DNA of 64,000 nucleotides from Fredinandcohnia onubensis (GTDB taxonomy: Bacteria; Bacillota; Bacilli; Bacillales; Bacillaceae_L), in contig NZ_JAPSKV010000001.1 in assembly GCF_031181385.1 (NCBI RefSeq), forward strand, positions 1 through 64,000, written 5' to 3'. The translations under genes and the position numbers were made by a program. The notes under the pieces are model-generated. The model did not search any database and was not told the DNA's origin. It was given only the letters and a program-made list of their open reading frames with translations. Below are positions 6,103 through 55,213 of this stretch, piece by piece (positions within the stretch are counted from its first letter, which is position 1; the number at the start of each line of letters is the position of its first letter).

Positions 6103-6423
6103 ATGATACCTGGGCAATATGTTCTACAAGACGAGGAGATTATTTGTAACGAAGGAAGAGAGATTTACACCCTTTCTGTTACAAATACAGGTGACCGTCC
6201 AATTCAAGTAGGGTCACATTTTCATTTTTATGAAGTGAATGAAGCTCTTCTTTTTAATAGAGAGGATGCATATGGAAAACGATTAAATATCCCTGCTGGG
6301 GCAGCAGTTCGATTTGAACCCGGAGACGAAAAAGAGATTCAACTTATTTGTTTAGCTGGGGAACGAAGGGTATATGGCTTTAACAATAAAGTGGATGGAC
6401 CCTTAGAAGGTGGGTGTAAATAA
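6103..6423 (+). CDS. ureB: Urease beta subunit
   Basis: Second structural subunit of urease. The 106-residue protein has the conserved beta-subunit core: [21 protein letters not shown] near residues 25-45 and the [10 protein letters not shown] block near 68-77. It begins 23 bp after ureA with an AAGGAGG site, and its stop codon overlaps the ureC start by one base (TAATG), which suggests coupled translation of the beta and alpha chains. Confidence 0.97.
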
Positions 6424-8135
6424 TGAGTTTCAAAATGTCTAGAAAACAATACGCAGAAATGTTTGGGCCAACAACTGGGGATTCAATTCGTCTAGCAGAT
6501 ACAGATTTATTTATTCAAATTGAAAAGGATTATACCACGTATGGAGAAGAGGTTGTATTCGGGGGCGGTAAGGTAATCCGTGATGGAATGGGACAGCATC
6601 CGCTTGCTACCCGAGGAGAAGGTGTAGCGGATACGGTTATTACAAACGTAGTCATTCTTGATTACACTGGGATTGTAAAGGCAGACCTTGCCATTCGAGA
6701 CGGAAAAATCTATAAGATTGGAAAAAGTGGTAACCCGTTAGTGATGGATAATGTCGACATTATTATTGGTGCATCGACAGAAATTATTGCGGGAGAAGGG
6801 TTAATTGTCACAGCTGGTGCGATTGACACGCATGTTCATTTTATTAATCCAGAACAAGTCCAAGTTGCGCTTACATCAGGAACAACGACTTTAATAGGTG
6901 GTGGGACAGGACCTGTTGCAGGATCAAAGGCCACTACGGTCACGCCAGGTGAATGGAATATCCACCGTATGCTCCAAGCAGCAGAGGGCCTTCCAATTAA
7001 TGTCGGATTTACAGGTAAAGGACATGCGGCATCCAAGGAGCCTTTAGCGGAGCAAGTAAAAGCTGGAGTTATTGGGTTAAAGGTTCACGAAGATTGGGGT
7101 GCTACTGGTTCATCCCTCGACTATGCCTTAAGAGTAGCGGAAGACTATGATATTCAAGTTGCTCTTCACGCAGATACATTAAATGAAAGTGGCTTTATGG
7201 AACGCACAATGGCAGCGGTAAAAGACCGAGTTCTTCATATGTACCATACTGAGGGTGCAGGTGGGGGGCATGCACCTGACTTGATAAAATCAGCGGGGTA
7301 CTCAAATATTTTACCATCATCAACAAACCCGACACTCCCATACACAATTAATACTGTTGATGAACACTTAGATATGGTCATGGTATGTCACCACTTAAAT
7401 CCTTCCGTTCCTGAAGATATCGCCTTTGCGGATTCAAGAATTAGAAGGGAAACGATTGCGGCAGAGGATATTCTTCAAGATATGGGAGTTTTCAGTATGG
7501 TCAGCTCTGACTCCCAAGCGATGGGACGTGTAGGTGAGGTCATCCTACGTACATGGCAAGTGGCTGATAAAATGAAAAAGCAAAGAGGAACCATGCAGAA
7601 TGATAGTAAGTATGCAGATAATAACCGGGCAAAGCGTTATATCGCAAAATACACAATCAATCCTGCAATTACACATGGAATCTCCAAACATGTTGGCTCT
7701 ATTGAAGAGGGAAAAATGGCTGACCTTGTATTATGGTCCCCAAAGTTTTTTGGAGTAAAACCAGAGATGGTGATTAAAAACGGTCTAGTTGTTACTGGTT
7801 TAATGGGGGATGCGAATGCGTCCATACCAACCCCACAGCCGTACATTTATCGCCCGATGTACGCACAATACGGAAAAGCTTTATCGAAAAGCTCAGCCAC
7901 ATTTATTTCTCAGGCAGCTTACGATGAAGGAGTCCATGAAAAACTAGGATTAGAAAAAATAATTCTCCCAGTTGGTGGCATTCGCACGCTATCGAAAAAG
8001 GATATGAAATTAAATTCAGAAACACCAGAAATTACGGTTGATCCACAAACATATGAAGTGAAAGTAAATGGGGAACTGTTAACATGTGAACCGGTTGATG
8101 TGGTTCCTATGGGGCAGCGATATTTTCTATTTTGA
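6423..8135 (+). CDS. ureC: Urease alpha subunit (catalytic)
   Basis: Catalytic subunit holding the bi-nickel centre. All ligands are present at the same numbers as in the Sporosarcina pasteurii enzyme: His137 and His139 (HVHF), the carbamylated Lys220 (GLKVHEDWG), His222, His249 (LHADT), His275 and Asp363. The mobile-flap Cys322-His323 (MVCHHL) is also there. At 570 residues it is full length with nothing missing, so active urease is expected once nickel is inserted by the downstream accessory proteins. Confidence 0.98.
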
Positions 8136-50466: not shown

Positions 50467-50493
50467 GTCGAAAAGTGAGGTTGTGCGCGTTCA

Positions 50494-50607
50494 ATTGCGT
50501 TTTAAACTTGATAATTGCGCGATAGCTGCCCAGAATTGCGTGTTAAATTCGATAATTGCGTGAGAACCGACTACAATTGCGTGCTATATATTATTATTGT
50601 GTTTTAC
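50494..50607. repeat. Phased ATTGCG array, copy D2 (family D)
   Basis: ATTGCG (last unit ATTGTG) begins at 50494, 50514, 50535, 50555, 50576 and 50596: steps 20, 21, 20, 21 and 20. Alternate units share GTTTTAAACTTGATA-like spacers with copies D1 and D3. It follows the lipL terminator. Confidence 0.85.
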
Positions 50608-50665: not shown

Positions 50666-50694
50666 TTGAATTTTGTTTTTGGGCGTGATATGAT
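50666..50694 (+). promoter_or_regulatory. Sigma-A promoter of the SAM-riboswitch transcript
   Basis: TTGAAT (50666-50671), exactly 17 bp, TATGAT (50689-50694), about 40 bp before the riboswitch. Confidence 0.75.
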
Positions 50695-50734
50695 TCTCGT
50701 CAAGTAAACTAATTGAATATGATTGCTGTATTTT

Positions 50735-50890
50735 CTCTTATCAAGAGTAGGCTGAGGGATTTGGCCCTATGACGCCCAGCAACCGACCGTAATACCATTG
50801 TGAGATGGGGCGAGTTTTTTTCGCCGGGTATAACCCGTAAGGCACGGTGCTAATTCCAACAGAAGGATTTTTCTTTCTGGTAGATAAGAG
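50735..50890 (+). ncRNA. SAM-I riboswitch (S-box) aptamer
   Basis: P1 is a perfect 8-bp stem, CTCTTATC (50735-50742) with GATAAGAG (50883-50890). Inside are the S-box signatures AAGAGTAGGCTGAGGGAT, TGGCCCTATGA, CAGCAACCGACC, and ACGGTGCTAATTCC before the closing AGA ... TCTGGTAGATAAGAG. SAM binding should stabilise P1 and favour the terminator downstream, so the importer is expressed when SAM is low. Confidence 0.95.
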
Positions 50891-50914
50891 GTGCGAAGAC
50901 TTTTGTATGCTTCA

Positions 50915-50949
50915 AGCCTCTTTCTAATGAGAAAGAGGCTTTTATTTTT
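50915..50949 (+). terminator. Riboswitch-controlled terminator
   Basis: AGCCTCTTTCT-AATG-AGAAAGAGGCT followed by TTTATTTTT, 25 bp after the aptamer. Its left arm is complementary to AAGAGG at the aptamer 3' end, which allows an antiterminator. Confidence 0.92.
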
Positions 50950-51049
50950 GTTAAAAAAGGCCTCATAAAAACAGGAGAGTGATGGCTTTTAAACGGTAAA
51001 AGTAGATTTAAAAAATAGAATTACAAACACAAAAAAGGGGAGAAAAACA

Positions 51050-52126
51050 ATGAAATTAACAAAACTAGTATTCACAGCGTTACTAATTATTGCAGTATTG
51101 GTTGGTTGTCAGCCAAAGGTAGCAGAGGAAACGACAAAAACAGATAGCACAGAAGTGAAAAATTCTGATCATCCATTAGCAAACAAAAAAATCGCTTTAA
51201 TTATGCAACAAAACTTAGGAACTTTTTCTGCTCAATATATTGAAGGCGTTGAAGAGCAAGTGAAAAAATTCGCGGGTGAAACAACTGTTTTTACATCTGA
51301 GGGAGACCTAGCAAAAATGGCGTCAAATGTTGATGCAGCGGTAAACCAAGGCTTTGATGCGATTTTAATTGACCATGGAACAAAGGAAGCCCTACAAAGC
51401 TCGATTCAAAAAGCAGTGGAAAAAGGTATTCCAGTCGTAGTGTTTGATGCGGAAGTAGAAGTTGATGGAGTTACGGTTCTTGAACAAGGCGATCAGCAAA
51501 TGGCGCAAATGACACTTGAGAAATTAGCGGAAGATGCCGGCGGTGAAGCAAATATCGTAAAAATTTGGGTAGCTGGCTTTGCTCCAATGGAAAGACGTCA
51601 AATCGCTTATCAAGAGTTTCTTGACAACAATACTGGTATAAAGGAAATCGCAACTTTTGGTGCAGCGACTGCAAACACTGCGCTTGATACACAAGCACAG
51701 ATGGAAGCTCTTTTAAAGCAATATCCTGAAGAAGGTCAAATTACAGCTGTTTGGGCAGCGTGGGATGAATTTGCCAAAGGTGCTGTTCGCGCAATTGAAC
51801 AAGCAGGCCGTACAGATATCAAAGTGTATGGAATTGACATGAGTGATGAAGATTTACAAATGATTCAAGCGGAAAACAGTCCATGGGTTGCATCTGCAGC
51901 GGTTGATCCAAAAGATATCGGACGTATTCAAGTTCGTTTTGCCTACCAAAAACTAAATGGTGATGAAACACCAGAACGAGTAAAACTAGAGCCAGTCTTC
52001 GTAACAAAGGATGCACTACCTGAAGAAAAAATTACAACTGCAGAGCTTGACCAATACATTGAAGGCTGGGGTAAAAGCGAACAAGGTTACACAGATGAGT
52101 TGAAAAAGCTTGAAGCTGGAGAGTAA
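51050..52126 (+). CDS. Ribose-type ABC importer, sugar-binding lipoprotein
   Basis: 358-residue periplasmic-binding-protein-like lipoprotein (Peripla_BP_4/RbsB class). Lipobox LVGC (Cys20), then the fold of a ribose/AI-2 type binder: NKKIALIMQQNLGTFSAQYI, VDAAVNQGFDAILIDHGTK, and GIDMSDEDLQMI in the second lobe. GGGGAG precedes the ATG. It is the first gene under the SAM riboswitch, so the ligand is probably linked to methionine/SAM metabolism; methylthioribose is my best guess (inference). Confidence 0.88.
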   Translation: MKLTKLVFTALLIIAVLVGCQPKVAEETTKTDSTEVKNSDHPLANKKIALIMQQNLGTFSAQYIEGVEEQVKKFAGETTVFTSEGDLAKMASNVDAAVNQGFDAILIDHGTKEALQSSIQKAVEKGIPVVVFDAEVEVDGVTVLEQGDQQMAQMTLEKLAEDAGGEANIVKIWVAGFAPMERRQIAYQEFLDNNTGIKEIATFGAATANTALDTQAQMEALLKQYPEEGQITAVWAAWDEFAKGAVRAIEQAGRTDIKVYGIDMSDEDLQMIQAENSPWVASAAVDPKDIGRIQVRFAYQKLNGDETPERVKLEPVFVTKDALPEEKITTAELDQYIEGWGKSEQGYTDELKKLEAGE

Positions 52127-52129
52127 AAA

Positions 52130-52153
52130 AGAGGGCCTCCTAAGGTCCTCTGT
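52130..52153 (+). other. Intercistronic hairpin after the binding-protein gene
   Basis: AGAGGGCC-TCCTA-AGGTCCTCT without a T run; probably protects the 3' end of the binding-protein message. Confidence 0.45.
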
Positions 52154-52169
52154 AAAGGAGGATAAGTAG

Positions 52170-53702
52170 ATGCCTTTACTCGAAATGAAGGAAATTACAA
52201 AAAGTTTTGGTAATGTGACTGCACTCGAGAATGCTTCTTTTGAGTTGCAAAGGGGCGAGGTTCACGCGTTGCTGGGGGCCAATGGTGCTGGAAAAAGCAC
52301 GCTGATGAAAATTCTATCAGGTGCATATGAGCTAGATACAGGGGTGATTACCCTTGAAGATAAAACAATTGATATTCGTTCTCCGAAGGATGCAAAATCA
52401 ACTGGCATTCACATTGTCTATCAAGAGGTCGACACGGCGATTGTACCGCAGTTAACCGTTGCTGAAAATATTTTACTCGATACCTTTTCAACTGAAAAAA
52501 GCTTGTTCATCAATAAAAGAAAGCTTCGTGAAAAAGCAGCCTCGATTCTAAAGCTCTTGAATGTCACGGATATACCCATGACAAAACAGGCATTAGAATT
52601 ATCGCTTGCCGAAAAGCAGTTGGTGTTGATTGCAAGAGCCCTCGCACATGAAGCGAAGGTTATCATTTTTGACGAGCCAACTGCACCATTATCGATTGAG
52701 GAAACAAAGTACCTTTTCGATATTGTAAAAACTCTGAAGGAAAAAGGAGTCGGTTGCGTTTTTATCTCGCACCGATTACCTGAAGTGTTTGAAATCTGTG
52801 ACAGGTTAACGATTATGCGTGATGGCAGGACGATTACCACTTTTTCAACAAAAGAGGTGACTCCGAAAACGGTTGTTGAAACGATGCTTGGAAGTACCTA
52901 TACAGAACAATCTTCGAAACGAAAAGCCGCGAAGGGAGATCTTCTTTTAGAGGTAAACGGGCTTGATGATGGAGAAAAGCTTACCGATGTTTCGTTTACG
53001 GTTTCTGAAGGAGAAATCGTTGGGGTTGTTGGGTTAGTTGGCGCCGGAAAAACGGAGCTTGCGAAAACATTGTTTGGGCTTCGTCCATACGAACAGGGTG
53101 ATGTGATTGTTAAGGGAAAATCTCATCATTTTACCCATTCACAACAAGCAATTGAGGCGGGTTTTGCGCTTATTTCAGAGGAGCGCCGTAAGGAAGGATT
53201 GTTTATTCATGAGTCCATCTCTACGAATCTATCCTTTGCTAATTTGAAAAAATTCTCACCGTTTTTAGTTATGAATCGGAAGGCTGAAAAAAGCTATGCA
53301 AGCTCCATCATCGAATTGCTAGGGATAAAAACAAACGATACGGAAACTCTGGCTGAACATTTAAGTGGAGGAAACCAACAAAAGGTTGCGATAGGAAAAT
53401 GGGTTTCTCGGAATGCGGGCCTCTATTTGTTTGATGAGCCGACAAAAGGGGTTGATGTCGGTGCGAAGCAGGATATTTTCAAGCTTATTTATTCCCTCGC
53501 CGATGAGGGGAAAGGGATTCTTTATTTTTCTTCTGAAATAGACGAGATTATAAGAATTTCAGACCGGATTCTTGTTATGTATGACGGAGAAATCGTAAAG
53601 GAACTTTCAGGAGAAGAGGCAACACAGGATCAAATCCTTTTGTATGCTAGTGGTGGAAAGGATGACGTACATGAAAGGGAATATCATCAGCTTCCTGTTT
53701 AA
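52170..53702 (+). CDS. Ribose-type ABC importer, tandem ATPase (RbsA class)
   Basis: 510-residue protein with two ABC domains. N-domain: Walker A GANGAGKST (about 36-44), signature LSLAEKQ (about 145), Walker B VIIFDEPT. C-domain: Walker A GLVGAGKTE (about 289), signature LSGGNQQKVAIGKW (about 399), Walker B LYLFDEPTKG. The signature of the first domain is LSLAE rather than LSGGQ, and the second Walker A ends KTE, both typical for RbsA/MglA. AAAGGAGG precedes the ATG. The 3' end overlaps the permease gene by 32 bases. Confidence 0.92.
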   Translation: MPLLEMKEITKSFGNVTALENASFELQRGEVHALLGANGAGKSTLMKILSGAYELDTGVITLEDKTIDIRSPKDAKSTGIHIVYQEVDTAIVPQLTVAENILLDTFSTEKSLFINKRKLREKAASILKLLNVTDIPMTKQALELSLAEKQLVLIARALAHEAKVIIFDEPTAPLSIEETKYLFDIVKTLKEKGVGCVFISHRLPEVFEICDRLTIMRDGRTITTFSTKEVTPKTVVETMLGSTYTEQSSKRKAAKGDLLLEVNGLDDGEKLTDVSFTVSEGEIVGVVGLVGAGKTELAKTLFGLRPYEQGDVIVKGKSHHFTHSQQAIEAGFALISEERRKEGLFIHESISTNLSFANLKKFSPFLVMNRKAEKSYASSIIELLGIKTNDTETLAEHLSGGNQQKVAIGKWVSRNAGLYLFDEPTKGVDVGAKQDIFKLIYSLADEGKGILYFSSEIDEIIRISDRILVMYDGEIVKELSGEEATQDQILLYASGGKDDVHEREYHQLPV

Positions 53703-54693
53703 ATACGGGGCAATCTTATTAATGGGCTTTATCTTAATCTATTTTAGTACTGTGAACAGTGCATTTTTTTCATATGGAAATCTATCAGATATCTTACGAT
53801 CCATCTCAATTGTGACCCTTCTTGCGCTAGGGGTTACGTTTACGCTTGTTGTTGACGGATTTGACTTATCAGTAGGGTCAACGATGTCGTTGTCGGTTGT
53901 AATCACGGCATCCTTGATGGTGTGGTATGAGTTACCGCTATGGGTGGTACTGCTTTTACCGTTATTAGTTGGGGTTGCGGTTGGTCTTGTAAATACGTTT
54001 TTAATTGTAAAAATAGGGATACCGGATCTACTCGCAACTCTCGGAATGATGTATATCGTAGCAGGTCTTCACCGGACCTATACGGAAGGTTATTCAATCT
54101 ACAACCAGATGCCATTGACTAGTGGCGGGACTGCCCCTGGTGAGTTCAGCCAAGCCTTTTTATGGATTGGGCAAGGAGAGATGCTGGGATTACCAGTTCC
54201 AGTCTGGATTATGCTTGTTTTCGTGCTTCTTGCTTATGTGATTCTTAACCATACGAGATGGGGCCGAATTTTATATATGACAGGCGGAAATGCAGAGGCT
54301 GCTAGATTGTCAGGTATCAATACAAACAAGGTTAAGTTGATTGCTTATACCGTTTCTGGTGTGTTTGCGTCAATGGCTGGGATTTTGTTTACAGCGCGTG
54401 TCGGTTCGGGACAAATTGATGCTGGTGCTTCGTTATTAATGGAGTCTGTTGCTGCGGTGTTTGTTGGATTTTCCGTGCTTGGTGCCGGAAAACCAAATGC
54501 GCTTGGAACGTTTTTTGGAGCAGCACTTATTGGAGTTCTTTTAAATGGGCTAACCATGCTAAATCTACCATACTATGCATTTGAAATTGTAAAAGGTGGG
54601 GTGCTGGTCTTGGCACTTGCTGTTACCTACATCGGCGTAAAATATCGACCAAAAGTCATTCGAAAAAGGAGAGAGCAAAAACATGCCGCTTAA
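53671..54693 (+). CDS. Ribose-type ABC importer, permease (RbsC class)
   Basis: 340-residue membrane permease of the BPD_transp_2 family with about ten helices. Family blocks: ALGVTFTLVVDGFDLSVGST (about 54-73), TGGNAEAARLSGINTNKVKL (about 207-226) and VFVGFSVLGAGKPNALGTFFGA (about 266-287). ATG 53671 is chosen inside the ATPase 3' end behind AAAGGATG; a start three codons earlier is possible. It overlaps the VOC gene by 11 bases, so all four genes form one transcript. Confidence 0.9.
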   Translation: MKGNIISFLFKYGAILLMGFILIYFSTVNSAFFSYGNLSDILRSISIVTLLALGVTFTLVVDGFDLSVGSTMSLSVVITASLMVWYELPLWVVLLLPLLVGVAVGLVNTFLIVKIGIPDLLATLGMMYIVAGLHRTYTEGYSIYNQMPLTSGGTAPGEFSQAFLWIGQGEMLGLPVPVWIMLVFVLLAYVILNHTRWGRILYMTGGNAEAARLSGINTNKVKLIAYTVSGVFASMAGILFTARVGSGQIDAGASLLMESVAAVFVGFSVLGAGKPNALGTFFGAALIGVLLNGLTMLNLPYYAFEIVKGGVLVLALAVTYIGVKYRPKVIRKRREQKHAA

Positions 54694-55066
54694 AAAACTA
54701 GAACATGTTGGAATCCAAGTAAAGGATTTAGACACAACCATTGAGTTTTATACAAGAGTATTGGGATTAGAGTTGCTAGAAAAACAGGACCATGTTGACC
54801 CAAATTTGAAGCTAGCATTCCTTGGCTTTAGTGATTCCGACGAAACGGTTATTGAGCTCATTTCAGGTTATAATCCAAACCTTCCAACAGAAGGAAAGGT
54901 TCACCATATCGCATTTACCGTTGAGAATATTGAAGAAGAAATTGAGAGAGTCAAAGAGCACGGTGTTACGTTTGTGGATGAAAACATTACGACGCTTCCA
55001 AGCGGGGCTAAATACGTTTTCTTCACCGGCCCTGACGGGGAATGGATTGAATTGTTTCAAAAATAA
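54683..55066 (+). CDS. VOC (glyoxalase I-like) protein
   Basis: 127-residue vicinal-oxygen-chelate protein with two beta-alpha-beta-beta-beta modules. Candidate metal ligands lie at the canonical places: His8 (EHVGIQV), Glu near 55 (TVIELIS), His near 72 (KVHHIAF) and Glu near 122 (GEWIELF). The reaction is not predictable from sequence: glyoxalase, dioxygenase or epimerase. As the last gene of a SAM-controlled sugar-import operon it may handle a breakdown product of the imported compound (inference). AAAGGAGAG before the ATG. Confidence 0.82.
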   Translation: MPLKKLEHVGIQVKDLDTTIEFYTRVLGLELLEKQDHVDPNLKLAFLGFSDSDETVIELISGYNPNLPTEGKVHHIAFTVENIEEEIERVKEHGVTFVDENITTLPSGAKYVFFTGPDGEWIELFQK

Positions 55067-55158: not shown

Positions 55159-55213
55159 ATTGCGTTTTAAATTTGATAATTGCACACTAATCGGGGGAAT
55201 TGCGCTATACGCA
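55159..55213. repeat. Phased ATTGCG array, copy D3 (family D, short)
   Basis: ATTGCG/ATTGCA/ATTGCG at 55159, 55179 and 55199 (steps 20 and 20), the first followed by TTTTAAATTTGATA as in D1 and D2. It lies after a terminator, between convergent genes. Confidence 0.75.

Follow-up and report, generated by a model that had tools for sequence, protein, structure and literature searches.

A SAM-I riboswitch with a conserved, covarying P3 arm precedes a probable 5-methylthioribose importer operon in Fredinandcohnia onubensis

Uptake systems for 5-methylthioribose (MTR) have been predicted or described in several bacteria. An S-box-regulated MTR transporter of the ATP-binding cassette (ABC) type was previously predicted in Bacillus cereus, and the transporter of gammaproteobacteria has been named mtrACB (PMC3228920) and also mtnXYZ (PMC4239095). 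A B. cereus strain study has drawn on genes annotated as 5-methylthioribose transporters (PMC9502454). In Bacillus subtilis, MTR influx is attributed to MtrA (formerly YfnA), which is reported to be experimentally authenticated (PMC5743806). Here, we analyze a window of 64,000 nucleotides (nt) from Fredinandcohnia onubensis (contig NZ_JAPSKV010000001.1 of assembly GCF_031181385.1, positions 1 to 64,000 of the forward strand), in which a SAM-I (S-box) riboswitch, named for S-adenosylmethionine (SAM), precedes genes for a sugar-type ABC importer and a VOC (glyoxalase-I-like) protein. The operon is very probably an importer for MTR under the SAM-I switch; the role of an additional arm within the aptamer is a separate question and is weighed separately below.

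Like the B. cereus, mtrACB, and mtnXYZ systems, as far as the accessible parts of these sources describe them, the locus combines a sugar-type ABC importer with methionine-regulon control and MTR salvage genes (PMC3228920, PMC4239095). It differs from them in that the window genes lie apart from the mtn cluster, are accompanied by a VOC gene, and stand behind a SAM-I aptamer with an arm on helix P3. B. subtilis MtrA shares the substrate proposed here, but is named as a different influx protein (PMC5743806). The original prediction, made from the letters of the window alone, considered no such import operon to be well characterized in Bacillus. This was overstated, given the earlier B. cereus prediction, which is known to us via PMC3228920; the comparison extends to that account of a 2004 source. 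The operon can be regarded as a further case of a previously predicted function, and what appears to be new is the arm-bearing SAM-I aptamer.

The operon encodes a substrate-binding lipoprotein of the Peripla_BP_4 family, an ATPase with two ABC_tran stretches, and a BPD_transp_2 permease (Table 1), which agrees with the RbsBAC-class transporter that had been predicted behind the aptamer; importers of this class are called RbsABC/CUT2-type. When the lipoprotein was compared by sequence with solved structures, 5ulb (224 bits) and 4ry8 (220 bits) ranked far above the next entry (95 bits), and the same two were the best fold matches of its structure model (pLDDT 88.5). The protein 4ry8, titled 5-methylthioribose transporter solute binding protein TLET_1677, shares 37% identity and the fold with the lipoprotein (TM-score 0.91 by target). 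It comes from Thermotoga lettingae, a member of another phylum, and is the closest sequence with a named ligand; no paper on this structure was found in the open-licence literature. The marginally better match, 5ulb from Yersinia, is titled only as a sugar ABC transporter. The lipoprotein is therefore close to an MTR-binding protein in both sequence and fold, with 5ulb scoring slightly higher.

An importer for ribose or another plain sugar, with the SAM-I switch being incidental, is the most obvious alternative. All three parts do score against ribose-type families, yet RbsB (70.5 of 337 bits), RbsA (470.7 of 745 bits), and the ribose permease (211.6 of 398 bits) all remain below the curated equivalog cut-offs, as do the matches to the other sugars listed, and no ribose-named chain exceeds 95 bits where 4RY8 reaches 220. 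A ribose importer was rejected as a candidate on the basis of these cut-offs and of the ranking by fold and sequence. Many relatives of the importer lack a SAM-I match (36 of 80, see below), as this alternative would have it; however, operons of mtnK, mtnA, and importer under SAM-I control recur across genera, and the presence of the importer goes with that of mtnK. We consider a plain sugar to be highly improbable as the substrate.

The original prediction suggested looking for mtnK and mtnA in the genome. Both are encoded there, and they score above curated NCBIfam cut-offs together with mtnW, mtnX, and mtnB. The mtnD frame passes the Pfam ARD model (109 bits) with no NCBIfam match, while the mtnE and mtnU frames match only general transaminase and amidohydrolase models and are named by position and general family. 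The assembly (4.26 Mb, 39 contigs) contains 14 SAM-I aptamers, two of which precede mtnK and mtnW. MtnK would phosphorylate the imported MTR, and the mtn pathway, whose genes lie outside the window operon, would return it to methionine.

Gene neighborhoods of relatives point in the same direction. Among GTDB genomes, at least 561 importer relatives were confirmed, and the best 80 of these (the named loci) were inspected; the closest, at 99% identity of the importer protein, are those of two F. onubensis strains. In 24 of the 80 loci, mtnK and mtnA are directly followed by the importer, with a SAM-I aptamer before mtnK in every case, and in a further 20 the aptamer stands directly before the importer. 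In a sample of genomes of the order, the importer was found in 144 of 396 at E 1e-50 and mtnK in 221 of 393. The mtnK list holds 143 of the 144 importer genomes versus 78 of the 252 others, the total being taken as 396 and the mtnK search having covered 393 (Fisher p about 1e-48, uncorrected for kinship). In the remaining importer genome (G395), mtnK and mtnA lie beside the importer in the fetched stretch, which brings the count to 144 of 144 after inspection. Genomes with mtnK and no importer (78) would be anticipated for an importer that is accessory to salvage. The importer is thus connected with MTR salvage genes both by linkage and by co-occurrence. As a separate observation, one in-frame stop occurs in the importer-protein matches from 11 genomes that belong to a single GTDB family (f44; genera g47, g108, and g133).

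Several points weigh against the reading as an MTR importer. In 36 of the 80 named loci, no SAM-I match or mtn gene occurs within 8 kb of the importer or up to the end of a shorter contig, so the importer family is not always wired in this manner. These loci comprise 35 titled Paenibacillus and one uncultured Paenibacillaceae; mtnK is encoded elsewhere in the genome in all 17 of the 36 that were tested. Before the Paenibacillus importers, no SAM-I aptamer was detected with our own model R1 at E 0.001, and none with Rfam in the six loci scanned. Some of the 144 importer genomes belong to a distant clade (32–43% identity) whose substrate may differ, and the co-occurrence test ignores kinship. 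Within the GTDB family of F. onubensis, the importer is absent at E 1e-60 from 7 of 17 genomes, and 4 of the 10 with a match fall in the distant clade. Finally, the title of 5ulb carries no ligand.

Promiscuity is possible in substrate-binding proteins of this type, and in some bacteria MtnK- and MtnA-like enzymes are reported to use 5-deoxyribose. The importer might therefore carry a different sulfur or deoxy pentose from the same pool, such as 5-deoxyribose, S-ribosylhomocysteine, or a mixture, with MTR as only one ligand. Set against this, the sole ligand-named entry of the two closest structures is named for MTR, and the linked genes are those of the MTR pathway. We regard this broader specificity as unlikely, though less so than a plain sugar. 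A sulfur-linked pentose had been predicted with methylthioribose as an example; the nearness of 4RY8, the mtn genes of the genome, and the mtnK–mtnA–importer operons of relatives favor MTR specifically, and it is from this computed evidence that we infer both the ligand and inward transport. Such an importer would complete methionine salvage at its outer end in many soil-dwelling Bacilli. E. coli has no MTR salvage pathway and excretes MTR (PMC3228920), and the importer could capture MTR from neighbors of this kind.

The leader bears out the prediction of a SAM-I aptamer with perfect P1, promoter, and terminator ahead of the importer. RF00162 is matched over its full model positions 1–108 with 75.9 bits (gathering threshold 44.4; E 5.1e-16), that is, the curated threshold is passed across the entire model. 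P1 consists of 8 standard pairs, and the conserved core letters of P2 align to RF00162. Consensus scans for promoters (7 sites versus 1.6 expected in shuffles) and terminators (1 site versus 0.6) are weak on their own; the terminator call, with its 12 pairs, is credible because it lies directly 3' of the aptamer and overlaps an antiterminator. Terminator and antiterminator are mutually exclusive in the scan and folds, with the P1 3' strand in common. The fold with P1 and terminator has an energy of −75.8 kcal/mol, compared with −68.4 kcal/mol when the antiterminator is forced, and a transcript that stops at the left arm of the terminator folds as the antiterminator. This modelled folding supports a SAM-off switch, and the response to SAM is what we infer from it. 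At low SAM, AAGAGG of the P1 3' strand would pair with CCUCUU of the left terminator arm, and transcription would continue into the importer genes; with SAM bound, P1 would be held and the terminator would form. As a side observation, two tandem SAM-I aptamers stand directly before the importer in Aneurinibacillus (L109, L111, and L124).

In its match to the whole of RF00162 and its terminator-type control, the leader is an ordinary SAM-I riboswitch; what the window adds is a four-way-junction arm on P3. The aptamer measures 156 nt against the 108 positions of the model, and the excess is a structured P3 insert, a detail absent from the original prediction. In relatives, the insert forms three hairpins on P3: one with a GNRA-type loop, preceded by GUAAUA, one with a variable loop, and a third that is sometimes absent. 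Model R2 of this element was built from 23 sequences, the window among them. In 23 sequences picked for clean alignment, both-sides changes occur in 8 of 23 arm pairs, and in 87 distinct model-aligned rows they occur in 15 of 23. The rows contain 261 both-sides cells versus 65.5 in shuffles, with 0 of 500 shuffles as high, although the alignment is fitted to the structure, and so favors it, and the shuffles ignore kinship. Slid controls, which keep kinship, gave at most 29. In the GNRA hairpin, all 5 pairs show both-sides changes with 100% pairing over the same fitted rows. An alignment-free strict pattern found all five pairs intact in 107 of 127 distinct places, the other 20 showing small differences in the junction, loop, or stem.

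These counts bear on whether the arm has any function at all. An engineered P3 extension was tolerated in a crystal structure (PMC5393176), riboswitches generally accept variable insertions (PMC2258182), and related sequences can beat shuffle controls without structure, all of which would suit a tolerated, functionless insertion inherited by descent. Such an insertion would not readily account for the compensated pairs of the GNRA hairpin in the fitted alignment, for its full pairing in the alignment-free count, for the near-invariant junction strand, or for the occurrence of the arm in 24 of 146 genera of a class sample, and we consider it improbable. A search for known RNA families inside the arm found none and returned only a partial SAM match. 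The accessible part of a survey of riboswitch structures describes nonconserved variable insertions and does not mention a conserved SAM-I P3 arm (PMC2258182), nor does that of PMC3764141, and no description of the arm was found in the accessible open-licence literature on S-box leaders. The arm therefore appears to be a new, hitherto undescribed, conserved and covarying subdomain of the SAM-I riboswitch. A subdomain of this kind, strongly biased to one pathway, is surprising in such a well-studied riboswitch class.

The bias is evident from the downstream genes. With an arm-only model, matches were obtained in 140 of 396 order genomes and in 43 of 398 class genomes (20 of the 43 already among the order's), for a total of 195 places as the sum of the match columns. 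The 128 places examined are not a random draw: they comprise the top hits, numerous second copies, and a range of lower-scoring hits. The first recognized gene downstream is mtnK in 98, mtnW in 13, the importer in 8, a short mtnA-like frame in 4, and metE in 5, so that MTR-salvage genes or the short frame follow 123 of the 128. The short frames (about 135–160 amino acids; L225, L253, L255, and L331), found in four genomes of two genera, resemble the N-terminal part of MtnA; two of them are weakly MtnA-like (65–69 bits by tblastn), one of the two reaching 19 bits against the curated model. In G024, one genome with such a frame behind an arm-bearing switch, no mtnK match was obtained. A separate curiosity is a group II intron (three Rfam matches; L171, 768–1324, minus strand) between the SAM-I terminator and mtnK in genome G027, which is one of the 98.

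Two results count against a strict tie between the arm and MTR import. The arms before metE (L176, L183, L191, L195, and L222) come from five genomes of one genus, and one of these metE genes, tested by its first 400 residues, matches TIGR01371 with 455 bits; the arm has been taken up outside MTR salvage as well. Moreover, with length as a proxy for the arm, long aptamers occur in just 5 of the 20 loci in which SAM-I immediately precedes the importer, the other 15 having only short ones. The arm is therefore not needed for control of the importer. By the same proxy, all 24 aptamers before mtnK–mtnA–importer operons are long (149–157 nt). In the F. onubensis genome, the arm is present in only 2 of the 14 SAM-I aptamers, those of the importer and of mtnK, which are 81% identical over 161 columns, arm included. 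Judged by these sequences, the arm goes with mtnK and not with the importer. The closest counterparts of the window aptamer outside the genus are mtnK leaders (up to 87%), above the 81% to the mtnK leader of its own genome. This would fit an origin of the window aptamer in an mtnK leader, and the aptamer may have arrived together with the operon; the sequence is too short for a tree.

Near-invariant unpaired bases (GUAAU and the GNRA-type loop) in an otherwise variable helix, and the strong bias to MTR genes, might suggest that the arm senses a second ligand. In such a composite riboswitch, SAM would be the OFF signal and MTR, MTR-1-phosphate, or 5'-methylthioadenosine would modulate it, and the device would have spread through the mtnK, mtnW, and importer leaders of Bacilli. 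However, a tertiary contact would equally need a fixed-length GNRA hairpin, and metE follows some of the arms; we give this idea little credence. A fixed-length GNRA hairpin beside a near-invariant flanking strand has the look of a docking module as known from established RNA motifs. We favor the arm as a tertiary module of a SAM-I subclass shared with the mtnK leader of the same genome, which would tune folding or SAM sensitivity. Its possible effects include a more stable aptamer, faster or slower folding, and a site for a second ligand. A C-G pair closes the outer end of P1 in 132 of 140 arm-bearing aptamers versus 23 of 67 others (the latter including five arm-bearing ones that the sorting pattern missed). 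This is a hint that the P1 end pair might be the receptor of the GNRA loop; descent would give the same bias. Timing deserves attention because the B. subtilis mtnK leader is reported to show NusG-dependent pausing before completion of the aptamer (PMC12288461). The arm could account, in a concrete and testable way, for any difference in SAM response between some mtnK leaders and other S-box leaders. In B. subtilis, methionine starvation drew only a weak response from the mtnKA leader (PMC8882085).

The fourth gene of the operon encodes a member of the VOC/glyoxalase superfamily, with a Pfam Glyoxalase domain and residues H8, E58, H75, and E123 invariant across 9 aligned sequences; we presume these to be the metal positions. 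It remains below the glyoxalase I (TIGR00068) cut-off (75.5 versus 120 bits). The original prediction made this protein part of ligand handling, a suggestion that found no support. A close copy adjoins the importer in only 3 of the 80 named loci, each of them from Fredinandcohnia or Bacillus sp. REN16, a count limited to close copies, as more diverged VOC genes beside other importers were not sought. No SAM-I aptamer was detected in 20 VOC loci, three of which are stretches of the operon in this genus that end short of the aptamer. VOC relatives with 75–80% identity are present at six places in other genera, and the two whose surroundings were read both lie amid unrelated genes. The VOC protein was dropped as a candidate pathway enzyme, the evidence giving no support to its involvement in MTR handling; its presence is most simply read as a recently captured glyoxalase-like gene.

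Table 1. Features of the leader and operon in the window, with the basis of each call.
Feature	Position	Strand	Basis or remark
Promoter-like site TTGAAT-17 nt-TATGAT, TG before −10	50666..50694	+	Consensus scan
SAM-I (S-box) aptamer with extended P3	50735..50890	+	RF00162, 75.9 bits
P1 5' strand	50735..50742	+	Pairs with 50883–50890; alignment and fold
P3 carrying the conserved four-way-junction arm; 48 nt of P3 stay unaligned in RF00162 as an insert	50779..50850	+	Model R2, 84.4 bits; pair counts
Junction strand GUAAUA of arm, conserved	50789..50794	+	
5-bp hairpin with GNRA-type loop (CCAUU-GUGA-GAUGG)	50795..50808	+	
Arm hairpin b, variable loop	50809..50825	+	
Arm hairpin c, missing in some relatives	50826..50836	+	
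Antiterminator strand AAGAGG, overlaps P1 3' strand	50886..50891	+	Partner CCUCUU 50917–50922; fold
Intrinsic terminator, 12 pairs, 4-nt loop, T-rich tail	50914..50941	+	Scan and fold
Lipoprotein, substrate-binding protein of the probable MTR importer	51050..52126	+	358 amino acids; Peripla_BP_4, 142 bits
Importer ATPase, two ABC domains	52170..53702	+	510 amino acids; two ABC_tran stretches
Importer permease	about 53662..54693	+	BPD_transp_2, 147 bits; start codon unfixed, frame open from 53644
VOC (glyoxalase-I-like) protein	54683..55066	+	127 amino acids; Glyoxalase PF00903, 87.3 bits; start overlaps permease end

The operon is flanked by diverged copies of a 20/41-nt repeat (AATTGCG...) at window positions 50492–50599 and 55159–55204, and the 18-mer TTTAAANTTGATAATTGC occurs exactly only at these two sites in the genome. 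Of three importer-lacking genomes from the same genus, one (G012) carries an array of this type at the corresponding position behind the lipoyl-transferase-like gene, and the other two do not. The operon site may be a variable insertion locus. Elsewhere in the window, the 5' ureB small RNA family (RF02514) is matched with 60.6 bits at 6576–6866 on the minus strand, antisense inside the frame 6423–8135. We take this frame to be of the urease alpha type, and the match probably reflects conservation of the gene itself.

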